The notes beneath the pieces were generated by a model, which worked only from the letters and a program-made list of their open reading frames with translations, ran no database searches and had not been told where the DNA came from. Shown here one piece after another: positions 36,967-55,711 of a stretch of 64,000 nucleotides of DNA (within the stretch, counting starts at the first letter, position 1; the number at the start of each line of letters is the position of its first letter). The DNA lies in assembly GCA_947494195.1 (NCBI GenBank), contig CANLUC010000006.1:32380-96379 (forward strand), in the 5' to 3' direction. This DNA is from an uncultured Nesterenkonia sp. GTDB lineage: Bacteria; Actinomycetota; Actinomycetes; Actinomycetales; Micrococcaceae. Both the position numbers and the translations under genes were made by a program.

Positions 36967-37392
36967 GAATGCCTTTCAGTGAAGCGGTGCCGCTTGCGCG
37001 GCCGTCCTGGCTGGCACAGTAGCAGGAACATACCCCAAGGCCACCTCGAGGCGGCTTCGGAGAGGGTAGACATTCTCGCGACGTGAGTGCGGCAGTTTTG
37101 ACTTTATTGCTGTCGATGCCTCTGCGAGGTCGCGCGCCTGCTGGACTATGACCCTGAGCTTGATGGACATTCAGGGACAGCGATCCGCCGTCATGCCACC
37201 CGTCTTGCCGTGTTGCTCCTATTGCGTGGACTAGCTACATCGCGGTCTCGTCCTGTTGCGCAAGAGAATCCCAGAGCAGAGCGCGTTGCTGATCGTATGG
37301 TGGACGACATCGAGCTCCAAAAGTCTCCAGTGGATGCTCCGTGATCTCGCGTGTATCTACGCGGTTCCTGTTCGAGAGGGCCTCGGCGTATG

Positions 37393-37440: not shown

Positions 37441-39609
37441 CTACAAGTTCCTCGCAGCTTCTGAGTTGCGGGAGTTGTCCATGCCGTCCGTCCCGGACTG
37501 AGTGGAACTAGTGATCTGCATTGAGCGAATACTTGCTGATGCTGGAAGTTTTGCTGCCGCCAGGCCCCCAGCGAACTCCTTCGATCGAGAGTGCCAGAGG
37601 TTGAGGTTGAATTGGAGAGGCTCGTCGGGGATCGGGGTGGGCTGCCACATGTTCCGCTCATAGACGCATTCGCCGTCAACGAGCCATCGGATGATGTTCG
37701 GGCGCCAATCGATTTCGTATGTGTGGAACCCCTCGGCGGCATCGAAACCAAGGTCGATGATGGTTGGTGTTCCGCGGTACCCGTACTCGAGCTTGGTGGT
37801 TTCTGGACCAGGGTTATAGAACACGTTGATCAACATTTTGCTGGTGTCTTTGCCCAGGAACTCGATGTCGATCTCCTGCCGCGGTCCGTTGCGATGAAGG
37901 AACATGCCCGTCACGAGTCCGGACACCCTAGGCGGTTGGAGCTCGGCTTTGAAGGAGCCATAGCGGTAGGAAGCCGTAGAGGCAATTGACCCTGATGTGA
38001 GTTCGCGAACAGCTGTCACCTCACGACGAAGGGTGAGAAGTATCTCTCGGGCAGACTGCGTGACGTTCGCGGGCGTGAAAAACGCCAGGTTGCTCGGGAA
38101 TGTATCGTCCCGGAGTTCCCAGTTGTCTTGGTCCAAGGGTCTTCCCGACGTCCAGTCGACCTGTAATGCCAGGGAATCGGGAACGGGGACTGTCTCGATG
38201 GGAATACCTCTCCACCCGCGAGTGGGTTTCAGCACCCATGGTCCGACGTCGGGTTTCAGGTCAGTGGAGCTATAACCGCTCCGTAAGTCTGTGAGTCGGG
38301 AAAGGCTGCGGTGCCCGGTTTCTGGGCCACTTGGGTAGGGGAACGAGGGGTAGTCGATCCGGAGGAAGGTGCTTAGCGCCTCCCATTTGTCTTGCAGCTC
38401 AGAGTCAAGCAGTAACGTGCGCTGTTTACTGTTGGGAGGCAGGGCTGGATGGGCGGAAGTGATGATGAAACGTGCGTCGGGGTTCGTTTGGGAAATCTGT
38501 ACGAGGGACGCAACTGAGAAGGACCCGATGTTGACGTACGCATTGAATAATTGGCCGCGACTTCCATCGAGAAGAGCTCGTTCCTCTGAGGTGGGCAGTC
38601 CGTCAAGGTCACTGACGACGGTATATCCAAGCATGGAGAGGGCTGTAGAGAGTGCGGTCAAACCAGTGCCGGGTCCACCGATGGCGACAATGGGTCCGGG
38701 TAGGTGCTTGACGGAGGGTACTAGCGGTTTCTCACGGGTAATGACTCCAACTTGGGACAAGACTGGCAAGACGGAGTAGGAGTTCGTAGACGGTTCATCG
38801 ATACGTTGTTCGATGAGTGGCCGTGCTGCGGTAAATACTCGCAACCGATCGAACTGCAGGTTCAACCACAGGTCGACAGGTCCATATACCGGTAACTGAT
38901 CGAGTAACTTTCGGGCGCCCTCCTGGCTCAAGACATATCCAGAGGCCTCCCAAATTCCCGGTTCTACCCGTCGACGGACGCCCGGTTCGTTTCCGGGAGA
39001 GGGAATATTTGCTACTTCATTGAAGGCTAAATACAGAAGGTCGAATTCGGGTGTGCCGTTGACCGATCGATTCAGCGAGGACCAGTTCAGTCTCATCTCG
39101 GAAGCGAAGCCATAGGTTAGGAACACATCGTCTTCAAGGACAAGTGCGCTGGGCACGTCCCCCTCTGCGATAAGCTTCCACACTTCGATGTGAGAAAGGG
39201 CTACCGCGATCTCTTGTTTTGTCATCCCGATCGTGCGCGCGCGAGTCTCACTACCAATTTGCAGCTGCGCGTTCGGCGCAATAGTGAGCTGATCCGCGAG
39301 CGTGTATCGCGGGGTCAAGTCAGGGGTGGGGGACGAATCAACGTATCGCGCATCAATTGCAGAGAATCGCCGGACCATCGTAGGCAGTCGTTCGCCGTGG
39401 CGGCTTCGAAATCGATTGAGCTCTCTGTGTACACGGCGCCAGCGGTCGGGCCGGCGGTCGAGGTTGATTACATAGATGCGACGCAGGGCGTCGGGCTCGT
39501 TGCCTGGCGAGAACACCGTGGCACGTCGGCGCCGATCTAGGAGGCGCAGTCGAAGTCGTCCGTGGTGGATTAAGGCTTGGCTAAAGTCCGCGAACGATCG
39601 CACGTTCAT
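37441..39609 (-). CDS. Multidomain GT25-family glycosyltransferase / P-loop sulfotransferase-like / GH16-like fusion
   Basis: GT25: RRIYVINLDRRPDRWRRV...ALSHIEVWKLIAEGDVPSALVLEDDVF; P-loop: PIVAIGGPGTGLTALSTALSMLGY; GH16: ASYRYGSFKAELQPP...GPRQEIDIEFLGKDTSKMLINVFYNPG...FHTYEIDWRPNIIRWLVDGECVYE. Confidence 0.75.
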   Translation of the reverse strand: MNVRSFADFSQALIHHGRLRLRLLDRRRRATVFSPGNEPDALRRIYVINLDRRPDRWRRVHRELNRFRSRHGERLPTMVRRFSAIDARYVDSSPTPDLTPRYTLADQLTIAPNAQLQIGSETRARTIGMTKQEIAVALSHIEVWKLIAEGDVPSALVLEDDVFLTYGFASEMRLNWSSLNRSVNGTPEFDLLYLAFNEVANIPSPGNEPGVRRRVEPGIWEASGYVLSQEGARKLLDQLPVYGPVDLWLNLQFDRLRVFTAARPLIEQRIDEPSTNSYSVLPVLSQVGVITREKPLVPSVKHLPGPIVAIGGPGTGLTALSTALSMLGYTVVSDLDGLPTSEERALLDGSRGQLFNAYVNIGSFSVASLVQISQTNPDARFIITSAHPALPPNSKQRTLLLDSELQDKWEALSTFLRIDYPSFPYPSGPETGHRSLSRLTDLRSGYSSTDLKPDVGPWVLKPTRGWRGIPIETVPVPDSLALQVDWTSGRPLDQDNWELRDDTFPSNLAFFTPANVTQSAREILLTLRREVTAVRELTSGSIASTASYRYGSFKAELQPPRVSGLVTGMFLHRNGPRQEIDIEFLGKDTSKMLINVFYNPGPETTKLEYGYRGTPTIIDLGFDAAEGFHTYEIDWRPNIIRWLVDGECVYERNMWQPTPIPDEPLQFNLNLWHSRSKEFAGGLAAAKLPASASIRSMQITSSTQSGTDGMDNSRNSEAARNL

Positions 39610-40448
39610 GCGAGATCTTCCCCGGTGTCTTCGCGCACCCAGTTTCTCCAGTTACGCGCGTCCGACCGGTAGGACAGCGGCCACTTGCTGATAGCAATGT
39701 CATCCCAAGTGGTGAGCAGCTCGAAATCGCGTGGTTCATGGCCTGCCTGCTTCCGCGCGGCATGCTCGACGAGGCTGGCGGTGAGATTGCCCGGTCCGGT
39801 TACCGACTGGAGGTCACGGTGAGGTCTATTGGCGGTAAGCAGGAGTTCCGTTGAACGCTCTAGGGCTCGGGCGATGATGGGGTGTCCCGCTCTAGCGATG
39901 AGCGGGTTGTTGTTAACGTAGAAGATCCGCTCAGAACCTGATCCGTCCGTAAGCGCCTCAGTCACATCGATCATTGAGGCGGATGTGATGTCGTAACACA
40001 GCGCCTGGAGATGCAGTCTGCCGCTGGCGATCATGGGTTCGATGTCGGCGCCCTGGTATTCGTCGTCGGCGTCAACGTACATCCCGCCTGCACGGAGGAT
40101 GAGGCACAGTCGAAAGTAGTCTGCCCGCATTGCTGGGTGATTGCAGTGGTCGAATGCCTCGAGGTGATGCTCACTGAAGTGTTCGTCGATGAAACTCCGC
40201 GCGGATGTGTCGTCAAACAGCATGCGCTCGAACCCTGCCTCCTCGAGCGGTGCCCAGCTCTCGAGGCATGCGCGGACGTCGTCCGGGAGGGCACAGAGAT
40301 CATCCCAGAACTGCACAAGCAGCCTGGGCATCGGAGCTCGACCGCTACCCGCGGAGACATCAACTGCCTTGGACAGGAGCTCTCGCATGAACTCTGACCT
40401 CAAGCCATCGACTTCGGCGATCTCGGTGGCGCTTGGGTTCGGTGGCAT
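39606..40448 (-). CDS. DXD-sugar-binding glycosyltransferase (OCH1-like/capsular)
   Basis: PRLLVQFWDD...CNHPAMRADYFRLCLILRAGGMYVDADDEYQGADIEP. Confidence 0.85.
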   Translation of the reverse strand: MPPNPSATEIAEVDGLRSEFMRELLSKAVDVSAGSGRAPMPRLLVQFWDDLCALPDDVRACLESWAPLEEAGFERMLFDDTSARSFIDEHFSEHHLEAFDHCNHPAMRADYFRLCLILRAGGMYVDADDEYQGADIEPMIASGRLHLQALCYDITSASMIDVTEALTDGSGSERIFYVNNNPLIARAGHPIIARALERSTELLLTANRPHRDLQSVTGPGNLTASLVEHAARKQAGHEPRDFELLTTWDDIAISKWPLSYRSDARNWRNWVREDTGEDLA

Positions 40449-40571: not shown

Positions 40572-43382
40572 TTATTCACGCGATTGGGCGGTTCTCCGGT
40601 CTTTCAAATCTTTGACGAAGTCTCTTATGACCTGGAGTCTTCGTGTCATCTCAGCAGGAGAAGGAAGCGCTTGTTCATTTCCCTCGGCGGTGGAGTGAAC
40701 ATAGAAGTTGTTGACATTAAGTCCGTCGTTGATAATTACGATGTCTTTCTCCTCTAGTACGAGAAGAGTACGTAGATGCTGGGTAGATACTCCAGGTTTG
40801 TTCCGGGCGACTATGCCATTGACCACTTTTTCCTCGACGGCGTACTCCCAGACCTTTCGAAGATTGTTGGCGAAGTTCTCGCATGCTCGGGCGTAGCCTG
40901 CGTGGTCGTCGGCGTCGTACAAAGCTTTTGCCGCAGGCAGCTGTTCCTGTTCCAAAAGAAGCATCAAGGGATTGTAACCACCCTTGGGTGAGCCGGTGCC
41001 CGCAATCTGTTGCCCCGTGCCAGTTTCCTCACGCTGGGTCATTTCGATGAAGTTATATTTTACTTTGACCGGTTTAGCGATGCCTTCTCTGATCTGGTCG
41101 TCACGGTCTTTTTCTATGCCTTCGTGCCATAGAGCACTTGCGAACGGCATGGAGTGAGTGAAAATAATGACTTGACGGTTTCTGGCTTCCTTCACCAAAC
41201 GCTGGGCGACCTTAATCTGGAATGCTTGGTCCAATGAGGTGATGGGGTCGTCGAGAATGATCGCCGAGCCATCGCCGCTGGATGAAACGTCACTCAGGAA
41301 CGCTGCGATGGACACCGCTCTCATTTCCCCTTCACTAAGGACCCCGTCTGCTGCCCTCTTCTTGGTCCCGAGGATGTTGAAGGCTATTTTGCTGACTCCC
41401 TTGATCACACTGGTCGAAACAAGGTCGACTTTCAGATGGGGTTCGTTGCTTGCTCCCCGGGGCCGATCCTCAAGGATTCGGAGGTTGTGTTTGAAGTCGC
41501 CGGCAACCTTGTCAACGTATTCCCGACAGACCTTGCCTGAGAACTCCGAGAGACTTCGAGTGGCGCACTGCTCGAGGACCTTCTGGAAAGCCTGGATCTG
41601 AATCATCCGGTCGTGCAACTCTTTGAGTGCTGGCCTTGCCTTATTGACTTGGGAGCGCTCCTGCAGGGTGGTCAGTCTCGTCTGCAGCTCAGCCAGTTCG
41701 GAACCGTCAGCGGATTCGTTCTGTATCTTACGGACTTCTGCTTCATAGGTTTGGCCCCTCCGTTCGATGAAACTAGACGCCATACGCAATTCGTCCTGGA
41801 TGGTGACGCTCTCCATGTCGACGACGTCGGTTTCTCCAGCCACTGAGCATTTAAGGAACGGGGCGATCTTCTTAGCAATAGGCTCAGGGCTTTGAACGTC
41901 CGTCGGTGGATTCTCGAGAAGGTCTGCGATGGTCTGTAGATTCAACCGGAGCTGACGGATGACAGCGTCACCATCGTCTTCTTCCAGCACTGTTAGCAGG
42001 TCATCGTCTATCTGCTCCGGTGAAGCAGCCACCGTGATTCCCTGGACGACCTCCGCGGCACCGGCGGTTAGCCTCCGTCGCTCAGCGCCAAGGTCCAGTT
42101 TCATCGCCTTGTCGAACTCATGGAACCTCTGATGCGCTTCCTCGGTCAGGGGTTGATGACATAGCGGGCAATTCTCCATACCGCCGAGCGGGAACTCTCC
42201 ATCAGGGTAGGCAATCTTGTCGACGTACTCTTTCGTGGCGTTCCACATCTCGTGCCAGTGGGTGCTCAGGACCCCGGGTACGGCCTCTGCCGAGAAGTCC
42301 CGCCGTTCCTGGGCTGCTTCTTCTACCTCGATCTTTTGCAGTCGTTCCCAAACTGCTCGTAGGACCTCGATCTGACTAGGATCAACCTTCTCCGCAAGAG
42401 TTGAAATTCTGCTTGCCAGGGTTTTGACCTGGTTCATTCGGGCTTGAGCCTGGGCCAGACGTCTACTCTTACTGTTGGTTTGGCGCTGACTGATGGTTGC
42501 AGGCAAGGTCTCGATTTCGGCAAGTTCTGATTCGTCTAGTGTTCCCAGCGCCTCCAGAGACTCCAGCCCAGCCAATGTGTCGATGGTCAGCATCGCCTTG
42601 CTAATTTCCTGATCCGTGGCTTCGTTGTAAATGCCTGGTGCGGGCACTGCCTTTAGTGCAGCTTGTCTACGCTTGGCCTCAGCTCCCACGGCGTCGTAAG
42701 TCTCGATGAGACTTTGCAGAAGCTCCAGCCCGTCGGGGGTAACCGTGAGCGTGGTCCCCTTGGCATTTACATGCGACGCGGCGGTTTTGGAGTCGTAAAC
42801 GGCCACTCGGGAGAGGTTGGAGTCCTCGCTTGGATTCTTCAGGTCCCAGGTGTGGCTGGCCTCTTTGTCCCCCAGGAAGTACTGGACGGTAGCGCGGGGC
42901 TCGACGTCTTCCTCTTTGAAAACATTCCCCAGGATGGCCTCAGGATGTCGTGAGTGGCAGGAAGACTTGAGGATCCTTGTATAGCCGGACTTTCCCACGC
43001 CGTTAAGACCGTAAACGATGACAACACCCTTGGGGTCGAGGGCGAGGTCGGTATTATCACGCATCCTATTGACGCCCTGATGATGGGTAACTTTCCTGAG
43101 CGCGACCGGAGGCATGTCCGAAGAACTGGTAGGAATATGGTGCCCCGTGAGTGGCTCGGGTTCGAAAGGATTCAGCGGCGTAGCTTTGTCGGGGATTTCA
43201 GTACAGAGATCTAGGTCCGATAGGGCCGATGCGTACGCCGTATCTGCGAGACGAGTGATCTCAGTGTCAGAAAGCGAGGTGTTCACGGTATGCCTTCTAA
43301 GAGCATCGCGTTGCCATGGCAGTAAATTTTCTGAGTACGTCAGGACTTCGGAGTAGATGGAACCGGCGATGACTTCCCCCAA
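40572..43382 (-). CDS. AAA_13-type SMC-like ATPase, RloC/PrrC-like (putative anticodon-nuclease/abortive-infection protein)
   Basis: Walker A YGLNGVGKSGYTRIL; zinc-hook NCPLCHQPL; signature LSEGEMRAVSIAAFL; Walker B AIILDDPITSLD; C-terminal RKVWE (R-x3-E) then VHS. Confidence 0.75.
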   Translation of the reverse strand: MGEVIAGSIYSEVLTYSENLLPWQRDALRRHTVNTSLSDTEITRLADTAYASALSDLDLCTEIPDKATPLNPFEPEPLTGHHIPTSSSDMPPVALRKVTHHQGVNRMRDNTDLALDPKGVVIVYGLNGVGKSGYTRILKSSCHSRHPEAILGNVFKEEDVEPRATVQYFLGDKEASHTWDLKNPSEDSNLSRVAVYDSKTAASHVNAKGTTLTVTPDGLELLQSLIETYDAVGAEAKRRQAALKAVPAPGIYNEATDQEISKAMLTIDTLAGLESLEALGTLDESELAEIETLPATISQRQTNSKSRRLAQAQARMNQVKTLASRISTLAEKVDPSQIEVLRAVWERLQKIEVEEAAQERRDFSAEAVPGVLSTHWHEMWNATKEYVDKIAYPDGEFPLGGMENCPLCHQPLTEEAHQRFHEFDKAMKLDLGAERRRLTAGAAEVVQGITVAASPEQIDDDLLTVLEEDDGDAVIRQLRLNLQTIADLLENPPTDVQSPEPIAKKIAPFLKCSVAGETDVVDMESVTIQDELRMASSFIERRGQTYEAEVRKIQNESADGSELAELQTRLTTLQERSQVNKARPALKELHDRMIQIQAFQKVLEQCATRSLSEFSGKVCREYVDKVAGDFKHNLRILEDRPRGASNEPHLKVDLVSTSVIKGVSKIAFNILGTKKRAADGVLSEGEMRAVSIAAFLSDVSSSGDGSAIILDDPITSLDQAFQIKVAQRLVKEARNRQVIIFTHSMPFASALWHEGIEKDRDDQIREGIAKPVKVKYNFIEMTQREETGTGQQIAGTGSPKGGYNPLMLLLEQEQLPAAKALYDADDHAGYARACENFANNLRKVWEYAVEEKVVNGIVARNKPGVSTQHLRTLLVLEEKDIVIINDGLNVNNFYVHSTAEGNEQALPSPAEMTRRLQVIRDFVKDLKDRRTAQSRE

Positions 43383-43511
43383 TGGACTGTACGAGGCAGA
43401 GAATAGGAAGTCATTCGGTGGACGACGTCCTGTATTAATTCTCTAGTACGGACTCTACGAGCTGAGCCTCGTGCCATGAACTATCCCAGACTTCTAGGGT
43501 GATTCAAATGG

Positions 43512-44065
43512 TCAGACGTCAGAATGTGACCGCTGCAGCTCTCGGTAGATGGTCGCCCTGGATACATCGAAAAGCTCCGCCAACTCGGCCTGAGTGTGAG
43601 TCCCGGCCTTGTGGGTGGCGAGGAGGTGCTTCCGCTTTGAAGGGGAAAGCTTGGGCTGCTTCCCACGGAGCCGACCTTTTGACTTGCGATCGCCATTCCC
43701 TCACGAGTGCGGGCTCGGATGAGGTCGGCTTCAAACTCGGCCACCATCCCCAGGACGTTGAAGAGTAGCAGGCCGACTGCGTCGTTGGGATCGTAGAGAC
43801 TGCCCCCGATACTGAGCGTGACTCCCTTGGTCGTGAGTTCCTCAGCGATGTTCCGTGCATCGGGTAGCGACCGGGCGAGGCGGTCCAGTTTCGTGACGAC
43901 CAGGGTGTCTCCAGACCGCACCGCGGCGAGGGCTTCGCGGAGCCCGGGGCGGGTCCGGTTGGTGCCGGTGAGGCCTTGGTCAACGTAGACCTGATCGGCG
44001 TCGACGCCGAGTCCGATGAGTCCTTCGCGTTGGGCGGTGAGGTCTTGTCCGGTGGTCGCGAGTTC
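43512..44065 (-). pseudogene. Degenerate Tn3-type serine resolvase
   Basis: TTGQDLTAQREGLIGLGVDADQVYVDQGLTGTNRTRPGL...TREGMAIA then frame change to KSKGRLRGKQPKLSPSKRKHLLATHKAGTHTQAELAELFDVSRATIYRELQRSHSDV*; N-terminal Y(A/V)RVS lost. Confidence 0.85.
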
Positions 44066-44159
44066 AACCGGTGGTCGCCCATTTGCTGTGTCCGATGACG
44101 CTGCGACGCAGCCCTCGAGGAGTCCTTGCTGAGCTCTCGGCGTGAGTCGCAGAGACTGT

Positions 44160-44760
44160 GAGAATAGCCTTCTCGGAATATGGGTGTGGGTCATCAGCAC
44201 CACGCTGCGTTGGCCGTCCGTGTCGCCGAGGAGTTCCTCCAGGAGCTACTCGGCGATCTGTTTCTCCACATTGGTGGTCGGCTCGTCGAGGATCAGAACT
44301 GCGGCACCGGAGAGCAGTCCCCTAGCGACGGCGATGCGTTGGGCCTAACCCCCCGAGGTCAGTGAGCCGAACATCCCCGCCGGGATATCCAGCCCACGCC
44401 GTGACTGCGCCCAGCCCCAGAGCCCGACGGCGCGCAGCACCTGCTCCAGCTCGGCATGGGCCGCCGCAATCGGTCCCTGCTGGTGAGCCAGCGCGAGATT
44501 CGCCCGCAGCGTGTTGTCGTAGATGTGCGCTTGCTACTCGATCAGGCAGACTTGCCGTCTGAGCTGCTCGGAGCCGAGCGTCTCCGCGGGGCGCCGGGCC
44601 ACCCGGTACTGTCTCTGAGGCTTGAGGAAGCCCGAGCGCCAGTGCGCTCTCCCCGCGCCGCACCCGTGCCAGGGCCAGCGCCAGTGCAAGGATTAGGGTT
44701 TGATCCTTGCTGAGCTCTGCCGAGGCCCCGGTGACACCACCGGCCAGCAAGGGAACGGTT
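44160..44760 (-). pseudogene. ABC transporter ATPase fragment (CydC/exporter-like) with three in-frame TAG codons
   Basis: Minus reading: ...QVCLIE*QAHIYDNTLRANLALAHQQGPIAAAHAELEQVLRAVGLWGWAQSRRGLDIPAGMFGSLTSGG*AQRIAVARGLLSGAAVLILDEPTTNVEKQIAE*LLEELLGDTDGQRSVVLMTH. Confidence 0.8.
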
Positions 44761-44834
44761 TAGGGGCAGACTGGTCGGGTGATCCTGCGGTGCCGGCCCG
44801 CAGAGCTGAAAGCTAACACTACGAATGGAGCCTC

Positions 44835-45209
44835 ATGCCTACACCGCAAGCCCAGACACCATCCCAGAGGCCCTCGGAGTACCAACGCAACGCCTTCGCC
44901 CCAGCGATCCTCGCAGCGATCGTCTGCCTGGCCGGGATCGCCCTGATCGACCATGAGTACTACTTCGAGGTCCGCTACATCATCACGATCCTCGCCGTCA
45001 TCATCGGGTGGTTCGCTCTGCAGGCACGCCAGTGGTGGTGGGTCCCCGCGATGCTCGCTATCGCGGTGTTGTGGAACCCTCTCTACCTATTCGAGTTCGA
45101 GGGCCCGCAGTGGGCTGGGGCGCACGTGACCGTCGCAGGTGTCTTCCTCGCAGCCGGCATCTTGATCAAGACACCACGGAAGCCAGTCGCTGGCCGGTCT
45201 GGCGCGTGA
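44835..45209 (+). CDS. Small membrane protein (DUF6804-like)
   Basis: EYQRNAFAPAILAAIVCLAGIALIDHEYYFEVRYIITILAVIIGWFALQARQWWWVPAML. Confidence 0.75.
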   Translation: MPTPQAQTPSQRPSEYQRNAFAPAILAAIVCLAGIALIDHEYYFEVRYIITILAVIIGWFALQARQWWWVPAMLAIAVLWNPLYLFEFEGPQWAGAHVTVAGVFLAAGILIKTPRKPVAGRSGA

Positions 45210-45464
45210 AGCGCCCAGGGCTGAGGTTGCCCGCCATGACTGGGGTTGCACCATGCCGGCACGCACCGCACTGGACGAATCGAATTTCTGGCTCTCCATG
45301 AGAAGGGGTGGCGGCGCTGCTGAGGTCGGTCAGTGTCAATCCCGCACCTGTGCCACCCAGAGGAACCGCACCCCCGAGGCGGCCGCTTCCTCGGTGACTG
45401 TCTGTTTCGTCTGACCGCTGTTCTGACTGTGATCGCGTTGCAGAAATACGTTGTGGGGTTGTTC

Positions 45465-46193
45465 TCAGAGGTATGCGGAGATCAGCGCGAACAGAGCGAA
45501 GCCAGACGTCAGGACTACGGTCCCCAGCGGGCTGGTGTCGCCCTTGTGTGCCTCAGCAAGCATCTCTTCGATGACCACACTGATCAGTATCCCGCCGGTA
45601 AACGCCAGCACAGATACGGTCAGCAGTTCAGGCGCTGATTGGAGCACGAAATAACCTAGAGCTGCTCCGGTGAAGACTGGGATGCCGAAGGCCAGGGCGA
45701 GCAGGATCCGTTTGCCGCGGTTGACTCCTGCTCGACGCAGGGTAGCGATCGCGGCGAAGCCTTCAGGGGCATCTGCGGGCACTTGACCAAGGGCCAGTAT
45801 CAAACCGAGTCGTGGGTCGATGAGGGCCCCGGCACCGATCATTATCCCGTCGCTGAACAGGTCCAGAGAAACACCAGCGAAGATCGCCCAAGGACCGTTG
45901 CTCTCAGCACCGCGTCCTAAACGGTGGCGCACGGAGTCAATGACACGTTCTAGTCCCATGAAGCCCAACCCACCTGCCGCCAGTGCCAGGATCGGCACCC
46001 ACGCGTGAGTCGCTGAGAGAGCTTCCGGCATCAGTTCAAGTCCGACGACAGCTAAGACGATACCAGCGGCGAGATGCAGTGCCAGGCTCAGGGTGCGGTC
46101 GGAGACCTTGGTGATTTCCGCGAGCAGCCCACCGAGAAAATTCCCGGCAGCCGGCAAGGCTGCAAGGACCAGGACGAGGGCGAATCCCTCCAT
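45465..46193 (-). CDS. ZIP family metal transporter
   Basis: SLDLFSDGIMIGAG, GQVPADAPEGFAAIA, VIEEMLAEAH motifs; RBS GGAGG. Confidence 0.85.
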   Translation of the reverse strand: MEGFALVLVLAALPAAGNFLGGLLAEITKVSDRTLSLALHLAAGIVLAVVGLELMPEALSATHAWVPILALAAGGLGFMGLERVIDSVRHRLGRGAESNGPWAIFAGVSLDLFSDGIMIGAGALIDPRLGLILALGQVPADAPEGFAAIATLRRAGVNRGKRILLALAFGIPVFTGAALGYFVLQSAPELLTVSVLAFTGGILISVVIEEMLAEAHKGDTSPLGTVVLTSGFALFALISAYL

Positions 46194-46260
46194 CGTTTAA
46201 CCTCCAAGGTGTTTCATCGTGGCGAGACTCTCGTAGAGAACTCGCAGCGACACTACGCGA

Positions 46261-48234
46261 TCAGTGGGCCGGTGCGGTGAGGTGTGGCCTGGCTCTCGGT
46301 TCTGCTGAGATGAAAGCATGCTCGGCTGAGGGAGAGCGGGCGGCGCGCAGCCCGTTGAGGATGACGAAGACTTCAGCGATCTCATGGACCAGCACGACAG
46401 CGGCTAGACCGAGCACACCGGTGATCGCCGGGGGGAGCAGCACGATGATCAGCGCCAGTGACAAGACGATGTTCTGGGTGATGATCCGTCGGCCTCGCCG
46501 GGTGTGATCAAGTGCCTGGGGGATCCGACGCAGGTCTTCGCCGGTGAAAGCGACATCTGCTGATTCGACTGCGGCGTCCGAGCCGGTGGCACCCATCGCG
46601 ATACCGATATCTGCGGCGGCCAGGGCGGGGGCGTCATTGATGCCGTCACCGATCATCGCCACCGGACCTGCTCCGGCTTCGCGCAGCTGGGTCACGGCGT
46701 GTGCCTTGTCCTGGGGGCGCAGCTGAGACCGGACCTCGGTGATGCCCGCCTCGTGGGCGAGTGCTTCTGCGGTGCGGGTGTTGTCCCCGGTGAGCATGGT
46801 CACGCCCAGACCCCGGGAGGTCAGGGATGTGATGACCTGGCTGGTCTCCGGGCGAAGCTCATCACGGACCCCGATCGCGCCAACCGGCTGACGCCCCCGG
46901 TGCAGGATCACCATGGTCATGCCTCGATTCTCGAAGTCTTCGACCTGTTCAGCGAGTTCACCTGGGCTGAGCCAGCGCGGATTCCCCACAGAGATCGGCA
47001 CCTCATCGACGATGCCGCTGATTCCTTGACCAGCCGTCTCTGTGACCTGCTGAGCATCAAGCACTTCGGTGGACTCGGTCGTGATGGCTGCGGCCAACGG
47101 GTGGGTGCTATGGGCCTCCAGAGACGCCGCCCAGTTCAACACCTGGGACCGGGTGGTGTCACCGGTGGTGAGCACCACGGTGACGGTGGGCTCATTGCGG
47201 GTCAGGGTCCCTGTCTTGTCCAGGGCCACATGGCGGATGCCACCGAGGCGTTCGAAGGCGGCGCCGGACTTGATGATCACTCCAAATTTGCTGGCTGCAC
47301 CGATGCCAGAGACCACCGTGATCGGCACTGAGATCGCTAACGCGCACGGCGAGGCGGCCACCAGGACGACCAGGGCACGCTGCACCCATAGCTCCGAGTC
47401 GCCGAGGATCCACCCGACCAGAGCGACCACGGTCGCCAGGAGGAGCACCCCTGGCACGAGGGGTCGAGCTAGACGATCGGCTAAGCGGGCTTGGTTGCCC
47501 TTCTGAGTCTGTGCCTGCTCGACCAGCTCCACGACCGTGGTCAGGGAGTTATCCGTGCCTGAGGCGGTGGCTTCGACGTCTAAGGTCCCGGAGGTGTTGA
47601 TCGATCCGGCCAGCACGTCATCCCCGGGGCTGACTTCTACAGGGATGGATTCTCCGGTGATCGCTGAGAGATCCATGCTGCTGTGCCCAGAACGCACCAC
47701 CGCGTCGGTGGCCAGACGCTCACCAGCGGCTAGACGCAGCACATCACCGGCGACGAGATCCTCAACCGGTGTGGTGCGCTTTGTACCATCGGCCGCGAGC
47801 ACGGTGGCGGTGGTGGGGATCAGGCCTAGGAGTGAGCGCAGCCCAGACTGGGCCCGGTCCATGGAGAGGTCCTCCAGCGCCTCGACGATCGAGTACAGGA
47901 AAGCCAGAGCGGCGGCTTCCTCGATATACCCCAGGAGGACTGCGCCCGTCGCGCTGATCGTCATCAGCAGTCCGATTCCCAGCCGACCGCGAGTGAACAG
48001 TCCCGTCAGCGCCCCCGGGACGAACTGGGAGGCACCGAAGAGCAGCGAACTCCAGAACAGCACCATAGCGAGCGTCTCGGCTTCGCTGGAGAGCCACTCC
48101 ACCAGGAGCCCGAACACCAGCAGCAGGCCCGAGGATGCAGGAATCAGCACGGAAGGGCTACGCCACCACGGGGTGTGGCGCTCTTGCTCAGCGGCCGGTC
48201 CGGGGGCTTCGCAGCCGCAGGCCGATGTGCTCAC
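46261..48234 (-). CDS. Heavy-metal translocating P1B-type ATPase with SPC transmembrane motif
   Basis: TGESIPVE, VAASPCALAIS, DKTGTLT, GDGINDAPALA, HEIAEVFVILNGLRAAR; GTG start overlaps the cmtR stop. Confidence 0.9.
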   Translation of the reverse strand: MSTSACGCEAPGPAAEQERHTPWWRSPSVLIPASSGLLLVFGLLVEWLSSEAETLAMVLFWSSLLFGASQFVPGALTGLFTRGRLGIGLLMTISATGAVLLGYIEEAAALAFLYSIVEALEDLSMDRAQSGLRSLLGLIPTTATVLAADGTKRTTPVEDLVAGDVLRLAAGERLATDAVVRSGHSSMDLSAITGESIPVEVSPGDDVLAGSINTSGTLDVEATASGTDNSLTTVVELVEQAQTQKGNQARLADRLARPLVPGVLLLATVVALVGWILGDSELWVQRALVVLVAASPCALAISVPITVVSGIGAASKFGVIIKSGAAFERLGGIRHVALDKTGTLTRNEPTVTVVLTTGDTTRSQVLNWAASLEAHSTHPLAAAITTESTEVLDAQQVTETAGQGISGIVDEVPISVGNPRWLSPGELAEQVEDFENRGMTMVILHRGRQPVGAIGVRDELRPETSQVITSLTSRGLGVTMLTGDNTRTAEALAHEAGITEVRSQLRPQDKAHAVTQLREAGAGPVAMIGDGINDAPALAAADIGIAMGATGSDAAVESADVAFTGEDLRRIPQALDHTRRGRRIITQNIVLSLALIIVLLPPAITGVLGLAAVVLVHEIAEVFVILNGLRAARSPSAEHAFISAEPRARPHLTAPAH

Positions 48235-48593
48235 CGCTGGGCCGCCTGGCCCTCGCAGCACCCTGCTACCGTGCATTGCGGATCCACACAGGGGGCCTCT
48301 TCATCGACGGCCAGTGTGGTCTCTACCAGCGTGTTCAGCGCTCGAGACAGGTGAGCGTCGACGATCTCGTAGCGGGTCTTCCGACCCTGATGCTCCACGA
48401 CGATGATCCCGCAGTCCCGCAGGCACGCCAAGTGGTTCGACACATTCGACCGCGAGAGCCCCAGCTCCCGAGCAAGATCTCCGGGATACCGTGGCCCCTG
48501 GAGCAGGAGCAGCAGGATTCTCGAGCGGGTGGGATCAGCCATCGCCCGACCCAGCCGGTTCATCACATCGAGACGCGAAGCAATAGTCAGCAT
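48231..48593 (-). CDS. cmtR: CmtR-like ArsR/SmtB-family metal sensor
   Basis: RLGRAMADPTRSRILLLLLQGPRYPGDLARELGLSRSNVSNHLACLRDCGIIV...APCVDPQC; matches CmtR Cys arrangement. Confidence 0.85.
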   Translation of the reverse strand: MLTIASRLDVMNRLGRAMADPTRSRILLLLLQGPRYPGDLARELGLSRSNVSNHLACLRDCGIIVVEHQGRKTRYEIVDAHLSRALNTLVETTLAVDEEAPCVDPQCTVAGCCEGQAAQR

Positions 48594-48630
48594 GCGCTGA
48601 ACTATACATCAAGTAGTGAACTGTTTGGAG
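48594..48630 (-). promoter_or_regulatory. Leaderless promoter/candidate operator of cmtR
   Basis: Minus CAGTTCACTACTTGATGTATAGTTCAGCGCATG; TATAGT 7 nt from ATG, flanked by TTCA repeats. Confidence 0.5.
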
Positions 48631-48744
48631 AGTCTCCTACGGCCTCGGTGGGCGAGAAAAGTTTCTCAATTCCCCCGGCCCCGGGAGTCTTGGCAGACAC
48701 CAGAAAATCCCAGGGCCATCTTCGTAGTGAGGGCGGCTCTTTGA

Positions 48745-49509
48745 TCAGATGGGCATGACTACTTCGTTGGCGAACCAGTCTTGGAGAGCGTAGGTCCAGT
48801 CATTCCAGATGCCGGTGACCATTAACAGGCCCACGGTGATCAACATGCCCCCGCCCAGGCGCATGACAGTGGTCTTGTGCCGGGTGAAGAACTTCAAGGT
48901 GCGCATGCCACGTTGCATGCCTGCGCTGATGAGGATGAAGGGGATTCCCAGTCCCAGGCAGTAGGCAAACACCAGGAGGGCTCCGCGTGTGGAATCTTCT
49001 CCGTAGACCAGCGCCAGGACCGCGGCCAGGGTCGGTCCGATACATGGTGCCCAGCCGATGCCGAAGGTCGCACCGAGGAAGGGTGCTCCGAGCAGTCCGT
49101 CTGGTGGGCGGCGGTGGATCTTTCGTTCACGCTGGAAGAAGCTGAAGGCGCCCATGAAGATCAGGCCCATGAAAACGACGATGACCCCGAGCAGCTGAGT
49201 GACCCAGCCCCCCTCGACCCTGAGCCAGGTCGTGGCGTAGATGAATACCGACCCGATCAGCATGAAGACCACGCTGAACCCCAGGACGAAGAGCAGCGCG
49301 CCGAGCACCATGCGTGAGCGCGAGCGTTGATGCAGTTCAACCCCGGAGAGCCCGGTGATATACCCGAGGTAGCCAGGCACCAGCGGCAGCACGCACGGAG
49401 AGAGGAAGGAGACCAGGCCCGCGAGCATGGCAACCGGTGCTGCCAATAACAGCGAGCTGTCGAAGACGATTTCTGCGAAAGGGTTATTCGTGGTGGCTGC
49501 GCCGAGCAT
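48745..49509 (-). CDS. ccdA: Cytochrome c biogenesis protein CcdA
   Basis: AGLVSFLSPCVLPLVPGYLGYITGLSG...FGIGWAPCIGPTLAAVL. Confidence 0.92.
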   Translation of the reverse strand: MLGAATTNNPFAEIVFDSSLLLAAPVAMLAGLVSFLSPCVLPLVPGYLGYITGLSGVELHQRSRSRMVLGALLFVLGFSVVFMLIGSVFIYATTWLRVEGGWVTQLLGVIVVFMGLIFMGAFSFFQRERKIHRRPPDGLLGAPFLGATFGIGWAPCIGPTLAAVLALVYGEDSTRGALLVFAYCLGLGIPFILISAGMQRGMRTLKFFTRHKTTVMRLGGGMLITVGLLMVTGIWNDWTYALQDWFANEVVMPI

Positions 49510-50189
49510 CAGCGGTTCCCCCTCTGCTCCTCGCCGACGCTGTCAACGACGCCGCTGCCGGTTAAGTCGGCTTGATCTTCTTCCAGTACGGTGCTGATCA
49601 GGGTGCGCAGTGTGCTCGGCTCGATGATTCCTACGACACGAGCGCTGACCCGAGCCTGGGTGTCCAGGACCAACGTCGTGGGTACCGCGGAGGGGTGGAC
49701 GTAATCGGTCATGGCCATCATGACCTCTCCGGTCCGGTCCTCCATGGAGGGGTAGGTGATGCCGAAGTTCCGTTCAAAAGCCTCGGCAGTCGCTTGGGTG
49801 TCGCGGGTATTGATCCCGAAGAATTGGACGCCATCGGGTCTGAACTCCTCATAGGCGGCTTGTAAGTCGGGAGCCTCTACCCGGCACGGAGCGCAGGCGG
49901 CGTACCAAAAGTTCAGGACGGTGACCTCACCCTGGAGGGTCTCCGGGGTGATCTTTGTACCGTTGAAGAGTGTGGCCTCGAAGGCCACGGCAGCCCCACG
50001 ATTACCAGGTGCGAATTCCTCCACGGAACCGTCACCAGAGATGTAGTTCGATCCATCATTTTGTGCTCGCTGTGCCAGGTCGTCATTGTCGGAGCCGCAA
50101 GCGCTGACCATAAACGCCGTGGCGGTCAACGCGATCGTGGTGAGGGCGTGTCGGCGGGTCCGAGGTGTGGGGGAAGAATCTGCTGTCAT
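49509..50189 (-). CDS. TlpA-like thiol:disulfide oxidoreductase
   Basis: VTVLNFWYAACAPCRVEAPDL CAPC motif; lipobox-like signal VSACGS. Confidence 0.88.
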   Translation of the reverse strand: MTADSSPTPRTRRHALTTIALTATAFMVSACGSDNDDLAQRAQNDGSNYISGDGSVEEFAPGNRGAAVAFEATLFNGTKITPETLQGEVTVLNFWYAACAPCRVEAPDLQAAYEEFRPDGVQFFGINTRDTQATAEAFERNFGITYPSMEDRTGEVMMAMTDYVHPSAVPTTLVLDTQARVSARVVGIIEPSTLRTLISTVLEEDQADLTGSGVVDSVGEEQRGNR

Positions 50190-50288
50190 GGAGTCTCCTG
50201 GGTGTGAGATCTTCGCGGTCCTGTGCGGCCGGTCGGGCTCTGTGCTTGCCGTCCTCGCCGCGCTCTGGGACAAGGGGAGCCGCACGCT

Positions 50289-50930
50289 TTAGGAGAAGTT
50301 CAGAGCGGCAACGATCACGAGTCCCGCGATCAGCACGAACCATGTCAGCAACACGGTGCCGTGGTGCTCCAGCACGGCCCGTTCCAGTCGTGGGGGTCCT
50401 CCAGATCTCTGGTGGCCCCATCGGCTCAGGGATTCGAGGCTGACGTACCACATGGCGGAGAACATGGCGGCCCACGCGAGCATGCAATAGGGGCAGAGCG
50501 CTTCGATGCTGAATAGGCTCTGAGACATCAACCAGCCCACGAAGAACGTGCCAAGTGTGACACCGGCCTGCAGCCCACCCCAGTACCACCCGCTCAGGCG
50601 GGCACCACCCAGAAGTGCCCCGCCGGTGGCAGCGACCAGTGCAAATCCTACGAGGCCGATATACGGGTTGGGGAACCCAAAGACCTCAGCTTGCCAGGAG
50701 TTCATCACCGGCAAACAGGACACGGTCTCGCCCAGGGTGCAGCTCGGAGAATAGAAGGGGTTGGTCAGCAGCCAGTACTTCTCCACCGCGAGGATGAAAG
50801 AAGGCACCAGTCCCAGGACACCAGAGACGAGAAGCACCAGCCCCGTGACCTTGGAAGGTAGGCCCGGAACGCTTCCGGGTGATACTGGCGCGGAACTTTC
50901 AGACGACTCAGGTGTGGTGTGTGTCCTCAC
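50289..50930 (-). CDS. Vitamin K epoxide reductase (VKOR) family protein
   Basis: VSCLPVMNSWQAEVFGFPNPYIGLVGFALV...ALCPYCMLAW. Confidence 0.9.
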   Translation of the reverse strand: MRTHTTPESSESSAPVSPGSVPGLPSKVTGLVLLVSGVLGLVPSFILAVEKYWLLTNPFYSPSCTLGETVSCLPVMNSWQAEVFGFPNPYIGLVGFALVAATGGALLGGARLSGWYWGGLQAGVTLGTFFVGWLMSQSLFSIEALCPYCMLAWAAMFSAMWYVSLESLSRWGHQRSGGPPRLERAVLEHHGTVLLTWFVLIAGLVIVAALNFS

Positions 50931-51650
50931 TGAGCTTCGAGGGCTTCATCAAGGGGGTCTGTGAGGTCTTCGATCGACTCAGGGTTGAGCTGTTCGTCGT
51001 TGACGAAGAACGTCGGTGTCCCCTGGAGTTGAAGCTCTACAGCATCGTCAAAGTCCGCTTGGACCCGGTCTGCGACCTCATCGGAGAAGTAGTCCTCTTC
51101 CCATTGATCCATGTCGAGTCCGAGTTCCTCGGCGTAGCCACGAAACACATCGTCCTGAGGGTCTTCGTTGTGGCTCCATTGCTCCTGGGTCTCGTACATC
51201 TGCTGATACATCGCCTCGAGTTCACCCTGTCGGGCGGCAGCTTCCACCGCGTGGGCTGCCTGCCGGGAGTTTGGGTGCCCATCGAGGGGGAAGTACCGGA
51301 TCACGAAGGACACTTCTCCTTCGTAGCGTTCCCGAAGATCTTCGACGGCGGGGTAGATCGCGCCGCAGGCCTCGCACTCGAAGTCCAGGAACTCCACAAA
51401 GGTCACATCGCTCTGCGGGACGTCGTCGAGTCTGCGTGAATCTTCTCTGACGATCAGCTCGGAGTTCACTGCGCTGGACCCAGAGGCAGGGGGAGTTTCT
51501 TCTGGGGAATCGCGGAAGATCATGATCGCGACCACGGCTAGGACCACGACGACTGCTACGCCAAGAAGCCATCGTAGAGTCTTTTTCTTGGTGGCCGTGC
51601 CGCCAAGGGGGCTGTTGATAGGGGGATCTGAGGGGTGATCAGCAGACATG
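50927..51650 (-). CDS. DsbA-like thioredoxin-fold protein, membrane anchored
   Basis: FVEFLDFECEACGAIYPAVEDLRERYEGEVSFVIRYFPLDGHPNS...GTPTFFVND. Confidence 0.9.
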
Positions 51651-51760
51651 GGGATCCGTTCTTGAGGCAGGTTCTTGGTCACCGGTAGAGCGCAGCTCAC
51701 CGGGGCAGAGCAAAACGAGCCATCGCCGAAGCGCAGCAGCGATCAAGTCTCAGACGCGCT

Positions 51761-52456
51761 TCACGAGGCCAGGATGAGCTCTGGTGGCCCCCGAAGAGGA
51801 GTGGGCCCCTCCCCAGGGCGAGGTCTGACGGGCGCCCATATCGTGTTTGCCACGGCCACACAGGCTGGGTAGGAGGCCCGGGGAATGGCCTCGGGCAGCG
51901 GCTGAAACAGCGACATCCCCAGCACCAGGTACAGCACTTCTACCAGCTCATCGCCGCGACGGATCACCGCGTAGGTGACCACCAGAGCCACCACATGAAT
52001 CGAGAGGGCGCCGAATTCGAGATGAATCAGCAGCGGATGCTGATGATCCCCCACAGCAGTGGGACCTGGCCCGAACAGCAGGTGAAGGAAGACTTGACCA
52101 GTCAGTACCGCACTGACGAGTCGTCCTCGGCTGCGCGGCACGCGTGAGAGACCGATGCAGACCGGTGTGGCCACAGTGAGGGCGAGGAGAACTATTACTG
52201 GTTCCGGAACATGGCCGGTGGCGGAGTAGTGAGCCACAGCGGTGGAGAGCACGGCGGTGAAACCGATGATGATTCCCCGGGCGATCCGTCCAAGACCGCG
52301 AAGATTTGAGGCGTACACAGCACCCTGCCTCCTCCCAGTCTCCACACCCCAAGGGTGGGGATCGGCTATCTGCAGAAATTCTACAGGACGTAGAAAACGG
52401 CATACCGAGAGGTGCCTGTGGCGAGCCACCGAAGCCCGGCCCGGCAGCGAATCCAC
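51761..52456 (-). CDS. Hypothetical membrane protein of the copper locus (start uncertain, likely GTG near 52322)
   Basis: Hydrophobic ORF with several predicted TM segments. Confidence 0.55.
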   Translation of the reverse strand: MDSLPGRASVARHRHLSVCRFLRPVEFLQIADPHPWGVETGRRQGAVYASNLRGLGRIARGIIIGFTAVLSTAVAHYSATGHVPEPVIVLLALTVATPVCIGLSRVPRSRGRLVSAVLTGQVFLHLLFGPGPTAVGDHQHPLLIHLEFGALSIHVVALVVTYAVIRRGDELVEVLYLVLGMSLFQPLPEAIPRASYPACVAVANTIWAPVRPRPGEGPTPLRGPPELILAS

Positions 52457-52753
52457 CTGAAGTCCTGCGGGGATCGTTCCCGTGCGACTGACGGTCAGCC
52501 TCGTGGTGTAGATGCTGCCATCGCCGGTCTGTGTGATGCTGCTCGCGGGTCATGCTGCACTGATGTGGTCAAGGCGCCGCCCTGGATTTCGCTCGCGTCA
52601 GGATGCGGACCCAACGTTGAGCAGGAATGTCCCGTCGTGGCCGAGGGGCTCGACCCTTCGGGGCATCACCGGCTGGGGTCTCAGCAGGGACCCCCAAGCG
52701 CGCGGGTTCATCTCCTGACTTGCAACCGGGGCCCGCCGATCGACGCGTCAGCG

Positions 52754-53410
52754 TCAGAGTTTGCGGCGCCTGGTGACAGTGATGATTACTGCGCCCAGCA
52801 CCACTGCGCCCAGCACCAACGCAGCGAGGACAAGCGCCTGCCAGGCGGGCAGGCTGCCTGAATCCTGGGTCCCGGAAAGGTCGGCGTCCGCCTCGGAGGT
52901 GGGGTCACGCTCAGGGCTCTGAGAAGACGCTGGTGGGGCTGGGGTGCCAGCCTGTTCTGGGTCCTCGTCGGTGGGTTCGGAGCTGGGATCCTGTGCAGAC
53001 GGTGATTCTGCTGCGACGCTGAACGAGTAGCTGCCTTCGATGCGGTGTCCGTCAGAGGACACCACCGACCATTGCACCCGGTAGTCCCCGGCGCCCACCT
53101 CGGGCAAGGGCACGGTGGCGGTACCAGAATCGATGCGCGGGGGAGTATCGGTGATGACCTCGCCCTCGGCGTCAGAGACGATGATCAGCGGGTTCATCTC
53201 CACCAGCTCCCCAGAAAAAGTCAGCGAGACCTGGTGCGGGGGTTGCTGCAGCACGGCTCCGTCCGCCGGGGTGGTGTCCATCAGGACGTCGTGGGCCAGA
53301 GCTCGGGGCGCGGTGACGGTGCTGATCACACCGAGCAGAGCGATGATCATGGTGAATATGAAGACTCGGGGTAGTACTCGGGTAGGGCGAGGAGAAACGT
53401 GGCTTCGCAT
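52754..53410 (-). CDS. copC: CopC-domain copper resistance protein
   Basis: LAHDVLMDTTPADGAVLQQPPHQVSLTFSGELVEM...YRVQWSVVSSDGHRIEGSYSF; TAGGAT-N6-ATG. Confidence 0.88.
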   Translation of the reverse strand: MRSHVSPRPTRVLPRVFIFTMIIALLGVISTVTAPRALAHDVLMDTTPADGAVLQQPPHQVSLTFSGELVEMNPLIIVSDAEGEVITDTPPRIDSGTATVPLPEVGAGDYRVQWSVVSSDGHRIEGSYSFSVAAESPSAQDPSSEPTDEDPEQAGTPAPPASSQSPERDPTSEADADLSGTQDSGSLPAWQALVLAALVLGAVVLGAVIITVTRRRKL

Positions 53411-53644
53411 CACACCATCCTAAGTGGACAGGAACGCTGAACCCTTCTCTGCGTCTACAGGGACGGGACTACGGAGTCACCAAGAGCCTCTGCGCGGGAT
53501 GCTGAAGAGGGTGTCTGCTCCGGTGTCACCAGGCTGAGGGCCTGCACGTAAGGGGCCTGCCTGTGCGAGGTCTCACTTGGTCGCTGGTGTGAAGCACCAG
53601 GGCGCCGTCATCGGTCCGGACGGGATTGAGGCTAACCTTGGCGG

Positions 53645-55711
53645 GTGAAGAATTTGAGTCGTATTGGTCGCCCGTCGGTGTGGTGGTTCGTTCTCGCGGG
53701 TCTGCTCGCAGCGGTGCTCGCTACCGTGACCGGACTGCTGATAACCGGTGCCTCCGCTCCGAGCTCCCTGGCCGATCCTGGCCCGGTGGTGCGGTGGGGC
53801 ACACCGATCGTGACAGTACTCCTGAACCTGACGGCGACGGTGGCCATCGGAGCCTTCTTCCTTTGTGCCTTTGTTCTTCCCCGACGGCACCCGGAGATCA
53901 ACGGCCAGCCCCACACCGGTGGCGCTATCGGGGCTCCGGAATCCGCTGCTGGCTCCGGGAAAGAGCCAGTGGGGGGCGCCTGGCGTTTCGCCGCCGGCAT
54001 CGGAATGTTCGCCGTGATCCTCTGGGTCCCGACACAGCTGGCGCACTTGATCCTGACCCACCTCGCGGCCCTTGGCACGGAGATCGGCAGCGTCTCCTAC
54101 ATGGAGCACCTGGTGCAGTACGTCACCGAGATCGACGCGGGACGCATCCTTGTCGTGGGAGCGTTGATAGTCGTCCTGGCCTCCGCGGTCGCGGTCACGG
54201 TCACTGGGTACACCTCAGCTGCTGTGACCGTGTTGTTTGGAGTGCTGGCCCTGGTGCCGCTGGCCCTGACCGGTCACGCCGCAGGAGCAGCCAATCACCA
54301 ACTGGCGGTGACTGCCATCTGGTTGCACGTGGTCGGGGTCACGATCTGGGCCGGCGGTCTGGCGGTGCTATGCCTAGTGTCACCGCGCACCGGTCCAACC
54401 CTTGGCGCTGTGGTGCAGCGCTATTCACAGGTGGCCCTGTGGTGCTTTGTCCTGGTGGCCGTCTCGGGCATCACCAGTGCCTGGATCCGGCTGCAGAGCG
54501 TGACGGACCTGGTCACAACGACCTATGGCTGGTTGCTGCTGATCAAAATCGTGTTGACCCTGGTGCTGGGTGTGGCCGGGTGGTGGCACCGCCGAGTGAC
54601 GATCCCGGCGATCGGCAGACACGCGGTCGCCTCCCAGGCCGACGTCGGTTCTGAAGGCAAGCCCCGTCAGGTCCGGGGTTGGGCGTTCTGGCGATTGGCC
54701 GGTGTGGAGGTGCTGGTCATGGGCGCCGTCATGGGAGTTGCCGGGGCTCTAGGCTCTTCGGCACCGCCCATCCCCCAGGAACCTGCTCCCACCGATTCAG
54801 GGTTGGCCTTCTTCCTGACTGGCAGCCCGGTGCCACCACCGCCGACGGTGCTGAGCTACCTCAGCCACTGGCGACCGGATCTGATGCTGGGACTGCTCAG
54901 CGTCGCCGCCGTCCTGATCTACCTGCGCTGGGTGGCGCGTCTGCGTCGGCGCGGCGAGATCTGGGCTCCGGGTCGTACCGCCAGCTGGATCCTCGGCTGG
55001 GCGCTGTTCTACTGGTTAACCAACGGAGGCCCCAGCGTGTACGGCGCGGTCATGTTCAGCGGATACGCGCTGCAACTGCTGACAATCACTGCGGTAGTGC
55101 CCATTTTTCTGGTGCACGGAGCTGGCCCCACACTGGCGTTGCAGGCGTTGCCCCCACGCCAGGACGGCTCCTATGGTCCCCGGGAATGGATTTTGCACCT
55201 GACTCGATCACCCAGAGTGAGTGCCTTGGCCCATCCGATGCTGCTGGCGGGGATTCTGGGTGGGTCCCTGCTGGTGCTGTTCCTCACTCCGCTGTTAGAC
55301 CTCACGGCAGGAAGCTATTTCGCTCGCGCTGCCCTGGTGGTGTACCTGTTGCTGATCAGCGGGGCCTTCATCCAGGCTGTCACCAACGCGCCCGGTCATC
55401 GTCAGACTACTTATCCTGGGCGATTGCTTGCTCTAGGAGTGGCACTGGCCTGCTACGCCGTTCTGGGATTCGGCATCATTTCCCAGACCGGACTGCTTTC
55501 GGTGGACTACTTCGCACAGATGGGGCTGCCCTGGATGGACAATGCTCTGTCCGACCAAGACTTGGGAGGCATGATCGTCCTTGGCGTTGGGGGCGCAAGC
55601 ATCGTGGCTCTAACTCTCGGGGCCACAGCCACTCGGCGTTCACCTGCCCGGACAGCATCAACGTCGCACCCTGTGCCCGTCCCCAGCGACAGGGGTGCAT
55701 CTAGTGATTGA
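53645..55711 (+). CDS. CopD-CtaG fusion (copper import / cytochrome oxidase assembly)
   Basis: CopD N-terminal half; CtaG-like C-terminal half with YLTNGGPSVYGAVMFSGYALQLL; TAACCT-N6-GTG. Confidence 0.88.
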   Translation: MKNLSRIGRPSVWWFVLAGLLAAVLATVTGLLITGASAPSSLADPGPVVRWGTPIVTVLLNLTATVAIGAFFLCAFVLPRRHPEINGQPHTGGAIGAPESAAGSGKEPVGGAWRFAAGIGMFAVILWVPTQLAHLILTHLAALGTEIGSVSYMEHLVQYVTEIDAGRILVVGALIVVLASAVAVTVTGYTSAAVTVLFGVLALVPLALTGHAAGAANHQLAVTAIWLHVVGVTIWAGGLAVLCLVSPRTGPTLGAVVQRYSQVALWCFVLVAVSGITSAWIRLQSVTDLVTTTYGWLLLIKIVLTLVLGVAGWWHRRVTIPAIGRHAVASQADVGSEGKPRQVRGWAFWRLAGVEVLVMGAVMGVAGALGSSAPPIPQEPAPTDSGLAFFLTGSPVPPPPTVLSYLSHWRPDLMLGLLSVAAVLIYLRWVARLRRRGEIWAPGRTASWILGWALFYWLTNGGPSVYGAVMFSGYALQLLTITAVVPIFLVHGAGPTLALQALPPRQDGSYGPREWILHLTRSPRVSALAHPMLLAGILGGSLLVLFLTPLLDLTAGSYFARAALVVYLLLISGAFIQAVTNAPGHRQTTYPGRLLALGVALACYAVLGFGIISQTGLLSVDYFAQMGLPWMDNALSDQDLGGMIVLGVGGASIVALTLGATATRRSPARTASTSHPVPVPSDRGASSD

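Follow-up and report, generated by a model that had tools for sequence, protein, structure and literature searches.

A mobile cassette of a GT32 gene and a GT25–degenerate sulfotransferase-like–GH16 fusion gene recurs in bacterial defence islands and may serve in anti-phage protection

On the minus strand of the window, by which we mean the whole 64-kb stretch of uncultured Nesterenkonia DNA that was analysed, a 722-residue protein (37441..39609) joins a GT25 glycosyltransferase domain, a degenerate sulfotransferase-like P-loop domain, and a GH16 domain. Its gene is paired with a GT32 glycosyltransferase gene, and together these make up a rare, patchily distributed, and mobile cassette that recurs among phage-defence genes. 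The likeliest role of this cassette, to which we assign a probability of roughly 0.4, would be as anti-phage or anti-mobile-element cargo of defence islands that builds and remodels a glycan at the cytoplasmic face of the membrane. While all of the domain families are already known, the architecture, the GT32 pairing, the mobility, and the defence-island setting were found neither in PADLOC-DB nor in open papers, to which the literature search was confined, so that a prior mention elsewhere is possible.

The fusion gene reads from 39609 down to 37441 as 722 codons without interruption, and the plus strand of the same interval is full of stops. The initial annotation, which had the coordinates right, missed the strand, as well as the mobility, the defence-island setting, the linked carbamoyltransferase, and the wide spread of the family. 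Its description of a three-domain fusion bearing the motifs VINLDRRPDRW, LEDDVF, and EIDIEF nonetheless holds, as each of the three motifs occurs in the stated form, the GT25 and GH16 domains score well over their Pfam cut-offs, and the P-loop domain lies in between. It had also allowed for profile searches failing with two of the three domains; here, GT25 (over the whole domain) and GH16 were each matched in 17 of 17 members, and Sulfotransfer_4 in 12 of 17 at E < 0.1 (best E 1.2e-5). The search for the same architecture that it had proposed showed the order GT25, P-loop, GH16 recurring in 17 distinct proteins, and these (the window's protein included) were aligned. Homologues are about 35–68% identical to the window's protein and stem from Actinomycetota, Chloroflexota, Alpha- and Gammaproteobacteria, and Campylobacterota. 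Scanning genomes turned up six full-length homologues of like domain order at 55–68% identity (Dehalococcoidia/Chloroflexi MAGs, one Actinomycetes MAG, Pseudarthrobacter siccitolerans, and Lentzea aerocolonigenes), and nine of 72,556 plasmids carry a full-length homologue at 35–41% identity, their hosts being Citrobacter (IncC), Klebsiella (IncFII), four Aliarcobacter, Rhizorhabdus, Sphingobium, and Rhizobium. Moreover, the cassette is present on an ICE in 4 of 5426 E. coli genomes, and two of 398 Actinomycetota genomes (the window's own among them) and four of 295 genomes from the class of genome G490 were positive, adding one and two members, respectively; Proteobacteria were sampled through plasmids and E. 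coli genomes only. No homologue was found in phage records (INPHARED). Because 16 other full-length homologues keep the identical domain order, as single open frames in independent genomes and plasmids, a fusion made by misassembly or chance is ruled out.

The GT25 domain (residues 44–246; 38872..39480, minus strand) matches PF01755 with an E-value of 9e-18 and 65.2 bits against a gathering cut-off of 24, and its EDD metal/donor-site motif (residues 159–161; 39127..39135, minus strand) is identical across the alignment, with E159, D160, and D161 invariant in 17 of 17 members. By this motif and by its nearest PDB chains, the domain resembles both the bacterial LgtB/LOS-type GT25 beta-1,4-galactosyltransferases and COLGALT1, but its identity to COLGALT1 is 24–25%, and it differs from these enzymes in being fused to two further domains and in lacking a secretory signal.

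The GH16 domain (residues 515–682; 37564..38067, minus strand) is licheninase/XTH-like, without a beta-bulge, and matches PF00722 at E 1e-28 (100.2 bits; gathering cut-off 22). Its EIDIEF motif, called intact in the initial annotation, is indeed present, and the E-x-D-x-E core (EIDIE, 37861..37875, minus strand) is invariant in all 17 members, with E579 as nucleophile and E583 as acid/base by homology, and D581 between them. While the motif without beta-bulge is shared with licheninases, plant XTH, and EG16, and the best PDB matches (3o5s, 1gbg, and 1mac) are from the B. licheniformis/B. macerans beta-glucanase group, the domain departs from lichenase in the residues just ahead of EIDIEF (W-D replaced by R/H-Q), and from licheninases in an extra stretch around NPG...YGYRG and in not being secreted. 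Likewise, the NCBIfam BglS match has an E-value of 7e-32, yet its 110.8 bits stay far below the equivalog cut-off of 300 for licheninases. A signal peptide, usual for GH16 enzymes though not strictly defining, is missing from every one of the 17 proteins, and the oddity of an intracellular GH16 module, remarked on at the outset, stands. In fact, neither a signal peptide nor a membrane helix was found in any member, the highest 19-residue Kyte-Doolittle mean being 1.65, which agrees with the earlier reading that no signal peptide is obvious. The N-terminal segment (residues 1–40; 39490..39609, minus strand) is poorly conserved in sequence, yet basic in most members and amphipathic in character, and it may act as an anchor at the membrane face.

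Conservation differs along the protein, with GH16 having the highest mean pairwise identity among the 17 members (0.56), followed by GT25 (0.49), the middle domain (0.40), and the linker (0.24). Similarly, dN/dS over three pairs is 0.08–0.21 for GH16 and 0.10–0.14 for GT25, and 0.35–0.42 for the middle domain and linker. Purifying selection is strongest on GT25 and GH16.

The middle domain (residues 302–430; 38320..38706, minus strand) gave a weak Sulfotransfer_4 match in the window's protein (residues 399–428, 13.7 bits against a cut-off of 22.8). A full-length AlphaFold2 model built with seven sequences had a mean pLDDT of 38 and was taken as weak support, whereas a 131-residue model of the middle segment alone reached a pLDDT of 81 and a pTM of 0.77. 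The structural neighbours of the latter in the PDB are P-loop kinases and sulfotransferases (bacterial SgdX2 and Schistosoma enzymes among them), and Foldseek matched it to 8y9p with a probability of 1.00 and a TM (query) of 0.59, with gluconate kinases ranked slightly higher. Taken with the Sulfotransfer_4 matches across the family, this is a sulfotransferase-type P-loop fold, and the C-terminal W...P..P motif is also shared with Sulfotransfer_4 and bacterial sulfotransferases such as SgdX2 (8y9p). Unlike in those enzymes, however, the domain is shortened to about 130 residues, its PAPS residues are mostly lost, and selection on it is relaxed. At the positions that are canonical in sulfotransferases for the PAPS (5'-phosphosulfate) loop and the 3'-phosphate Arg, the basic loop residue (K/R) is absent from most of the 17 aligned members and the Arg after the strand from all of them, and the loop itself is eroded or lost in two alphaproteobacterial members (L014 and L015). 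Because the PAPS-binding residues are mostly missing despite the sulfotransferase-type fold, we regard the middle domain as a pseudo-sulfotransferase, probably a scaffold kept from a former sulfotransferase. An active sulfotransferase was rejected on these lost residues and on the relaxed selection (dN/dS 0.35–0.42). Of the P-loop segment likened initially to sulfotransferases, the fold was thus retained and the PAPS binding dropped, and the build-modify-trim enzyme suggested in the same place loses its sulfation step.

Directly upstream, and overlapping the fusion gene by 4 bp, is the gene for a 280-residue GT32 (OCH1-like) glycosyltransferase with a DADD motif (39606..40448, minus strand), which matches PF04488 at E 1e-6 (29.7 bits; cut-off 23). 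A GT32 gene takes this same position in 16 of 17 loci, with a gap of −4 to +95 bp where measured, the Lentzea locus being the one without it, and D-x-D is found in 16 of 16 partners. Moreover, a near-full-length GT32 of the same subfamily occurs in exactly the same nine of 72,556 plasmids as the fusion gene, followed by partial or weaker matches only. The GT32 and fusion genes form an obligate-looking two-gene unit, much as the initial annotation had surmised from the overlapping OCH1-like gene. While the DxD motif and the Pfam match liken the cassette GT32 to OCH1-type transferases, it sets itself apart from other OCH1-like proteins as a discrete subfamily, at least 37% identical throughout, which appears in plasmids only alongside the fusion gene.

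Six loci have a carbamoyltransferase gene (Carbam_trans N and C domains) linked to the pair, its side (upstream or downstream) and its orientation varying, and one of these copies (L004) is a pseudogene. None lies within the 64-kb window, and with its absence from most loci the carbamoyltransferase is an optional part of the cassette. Separately, a truncated carbamoyltransferase gene, whose product is 64% identical to the cassette's, stands alone among transposases on a Sinorhizobium fredii symbiosis plasmid (L078:8031-9179) and is possibly the remnant of a lost cassette.

The patchiness of the GT32-fusion pair is apparent close to home, as none of the 98 relatives sampled, 30 of them from the same genus, carries it. 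Synteny stops at 37096 and 37027 against the closest relatives (96% and 93% DNA identity), and this marks the approximate left edge of a genomic island at 37090..37100 (no strand). GC content is 54–58% at 38–44 kb versus 62–70% further left, and a serine recombinase with a Resolvase N-terminal domain (43481..44203, minus strand) provides the island with a mobility gene. From 44300 to 64000 the island goes on with what, read by eye, are apparent metal-ATPase, ZIP, CcdA/DsbA-like, and MntH-like genes, a stretch that is non-syntenic in the nearest relatives.

Elsewhere, the cassette rides on IncC and IncFII conjugative plasmids. In Klebsiella, two 697-bp direct repeats (L011:5526-6222 and L011:10185-10881), which are 94% identical and each contain a gene for a 200-residue tyrosine integrase, enclose the GT32 and fusion genes together with a GFA-family gene. 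On the E. coli ICE, where this cassette is found as well, a remnant of the Klebsiella-type integrase lies upstream of it. The Klebsiella integrase segment is found in hundreds of enterobacterial plasmids, and 944 plasmid records match when this region is the query, those among the matches listed doing so over the integrase segments only; the enzyme may serve to move cargo. The Pseudarthrobacter cassette has on either side a copy of some 240 bp from a helix-turn-helix (recombinase-like) gene (L005:521-756 and L005:4033-4271), and further cassette-spanning direct repeats are located at L001:8500-8678 and 12370-12543, and at L012:6606-6704 and 12675-12779. The repeats of these three loci are 77–82% identical and are possible insertion scars; cassette-spanning repeats were found in L011, L001, L005, and L012 only, and none in the window. 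In the tree, the window's protein groups with Chloroflexota, an Actinomycetota member with proteobacterial plasmids, and Citrobacter with Rhizorhabdus, and this mixing of phyla therefore points to transfer across them.

As for the surroundings of the cassette, PADLOC models recognise 10 of the 81 ORFs lying within 6 kb at E ≤ 1e-50, as against none of 94 control ORFs at the laxer E ≤ 1e-30 (Fisher p 3e-4 by ORF and 9e-4 by locus), a contrast that is overstated in that the control stretches hold mostly core or conjugation genes. Near and control ORFs were called by one rule, the controls coming from elsewhere in those genomes and replicons. Because of the make-up of these controls, the statistics show island residence rather than function. 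Within about 10 kb, PADLOC matches occur in 12 of 17 loci from unrelated genomes, and include PDC-S06 (window, L005, and L010), Hma, Bil, and a GajB-like helicase (L001), Gabija A and B (L002), PDC-S20, SoFic, and a Ppl-like gene (L003), AbiEii (L004), MzaB (L005), AbiD (L010), Lit and Shedu (L012), a GmrSD-type gene (L009), Orf5/HEC-06 (L015), and LmuB/ABC-3C (L017). Among the five loci without a PADLOC match, L032 to L034 are on short contigs, L014 and L006 have defence-type genes at the Pfam level (multiubiquitin and AbiV, respectively), and L011 has neither kind nearby. The candidate phage-defence gene PDC-S06, encoding an AAA ATPase, lies 123 bp upstream of the window's GT32 gene (40572..43382, minus strand), and it adjoins the cassette in 3 of 17 loci from two phyla, the others being L005:4292-6922 (minus) and L010:12994-15639 (plus). 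We do not claim it as a component, and it may either cooperate with the cassette or be a common companion in such islands. Beside the cassette on the Aliarcobacter plasmids there is also a 1230-residue protein (L012:2824-6516, minus strand) without any Pfam or PADLOC match.

The cassette is thus like the anti-phage systems of PADLOC-DB in its setting, near Gabija, Hma/Bil, Lit, Shedu, AbiE, AbiD, Lamassu, PDC-S06, and GmrSD-type genes, and unlike them in offering glycan enzymes in place of nucleases, NTPases, and toxins; no PADLOC-DB 2.0.0 model matches the fusion or the GT32 protein at E ≤ 0.01. Defence-island residence is guilt by association, and such islands also hold toxin-antitoxin, resistance, and surface genes. 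By analogy with this setting, we tentatively see anti-phage protection as the most likely role. Here, the GT32 protein and the GT25 domain would glycosylate an acceptor on the cytoplasmic side of the membrane, where the basic N-terminal segment would hold the fusion protein, and the dead sulfotransferase core would space or dock the two catalytic ends. GH16, as a putative retaining beta-glycanase or transglycosylase, would next cut or transfer the glycan product, which some lineages might cap with the O-carbamoyltransferase. Protection could come from altering a surface glycan used by phages, or from an action on an intracellular glycan tied to infection. Counting against this reading, the phage records gave no homologue, five loci are without a PADLOC match, and a cytoplasmic beta-glucan pool is not known from the cassette's hosts.

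Among the other readings, the one that survives best is that of a cassette diversifying a surface glycan or exopolysaccharide for a benefit other than phage defence (biofilm, or host and niche), islands being places that gather all accessory cargo. Decorating lipopolysaccharide, lipooligosaccharide, or capsule is a common function of the GT25 and GT32 families, and ExoK-type GH16 enzymes trim exopolysaccharide; in fact, the GH16 domain has an NCBIfam ExoK match (E 5e-17). Plasmid-borne glycan clusters exist too, and one of these, in Lactococcus, yields a surface polysaccharide that hinders phage adsorption (PMC11942015), a precedent that resembles the cassette in its mobile glycan genes and serves the anti-phage reading as well. 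However, the Lactococcus plasmid has a whole EPS cluster, while the cassette has two or three enzymes without export genes, there being no flippase, polymerase, priming transferase, or glycan export gene annotated alongside it on the annotated plasmids and the ICE. With the pair also kept in Gram-positive and Gram-negative hosts that have no common polysaccharide, and with its neighbours so often being defence genes, we hold this reading to be unlikely.

Somewhat less probable again is that the pair glycosylates a protein or nucleic acid, of host or phage, to stop infection, with GH16 editing or removing the sugar and the carbamoyltransferase capping it. Collagen galactosyltransferases are among the nearest solved GT25 relatives, Nol-like carbamoyltransferases are phage morons (PHROG 1601, E 2e-73), and the lack of a glycolipid export gene nearby would fit as well. 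GH16 enzymes, though, are endo-acting on beta-glucan or galactan chains, so that a single protein- or base-linked sugar would offer no chain to cut, and no nucleic-acid-binding or methylase partner appears consistently. A diffusible decorated oligosaccharide serving as toxin, signal, or storage compound, by a Nod-factor- or aminoglycoside-like logic, accords with the TobZ/NodU-type carbamoyltransferase linked in six loci, but is improbable given that most loci are without it and that no immunity gene, exporter, or lipid transferase was seen.

Returning to anti-phage protection, a bolder and rather doubtful version is that the fusion and GT32 proteins, with or without the carbamoyltransferase, represent a new anti-phage class that blocks infection by intracellular glycan chemistry in both Gram-positive and Gram-negative hosts. 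The defence systems in the catalogues depend for the most part on nucleases, NTPases, signalling nucleotides, and toxins. If true, glycan chemistry would be a portable and self-contained form of immunity, carried across phyla in defence islands, and a GH16 enzyme without a secretion route would have a role.

Lastly, the family is easily overlooked, because the annotation 'family 16 glycosylhydrolase', which is all that RefSeq gives for the fusion protein in the Citrobacter IncC plasmid, hides its GT25 half. The GT32 gene of that same plasmid, near the end of the record (L009:3-800), is unannotated.
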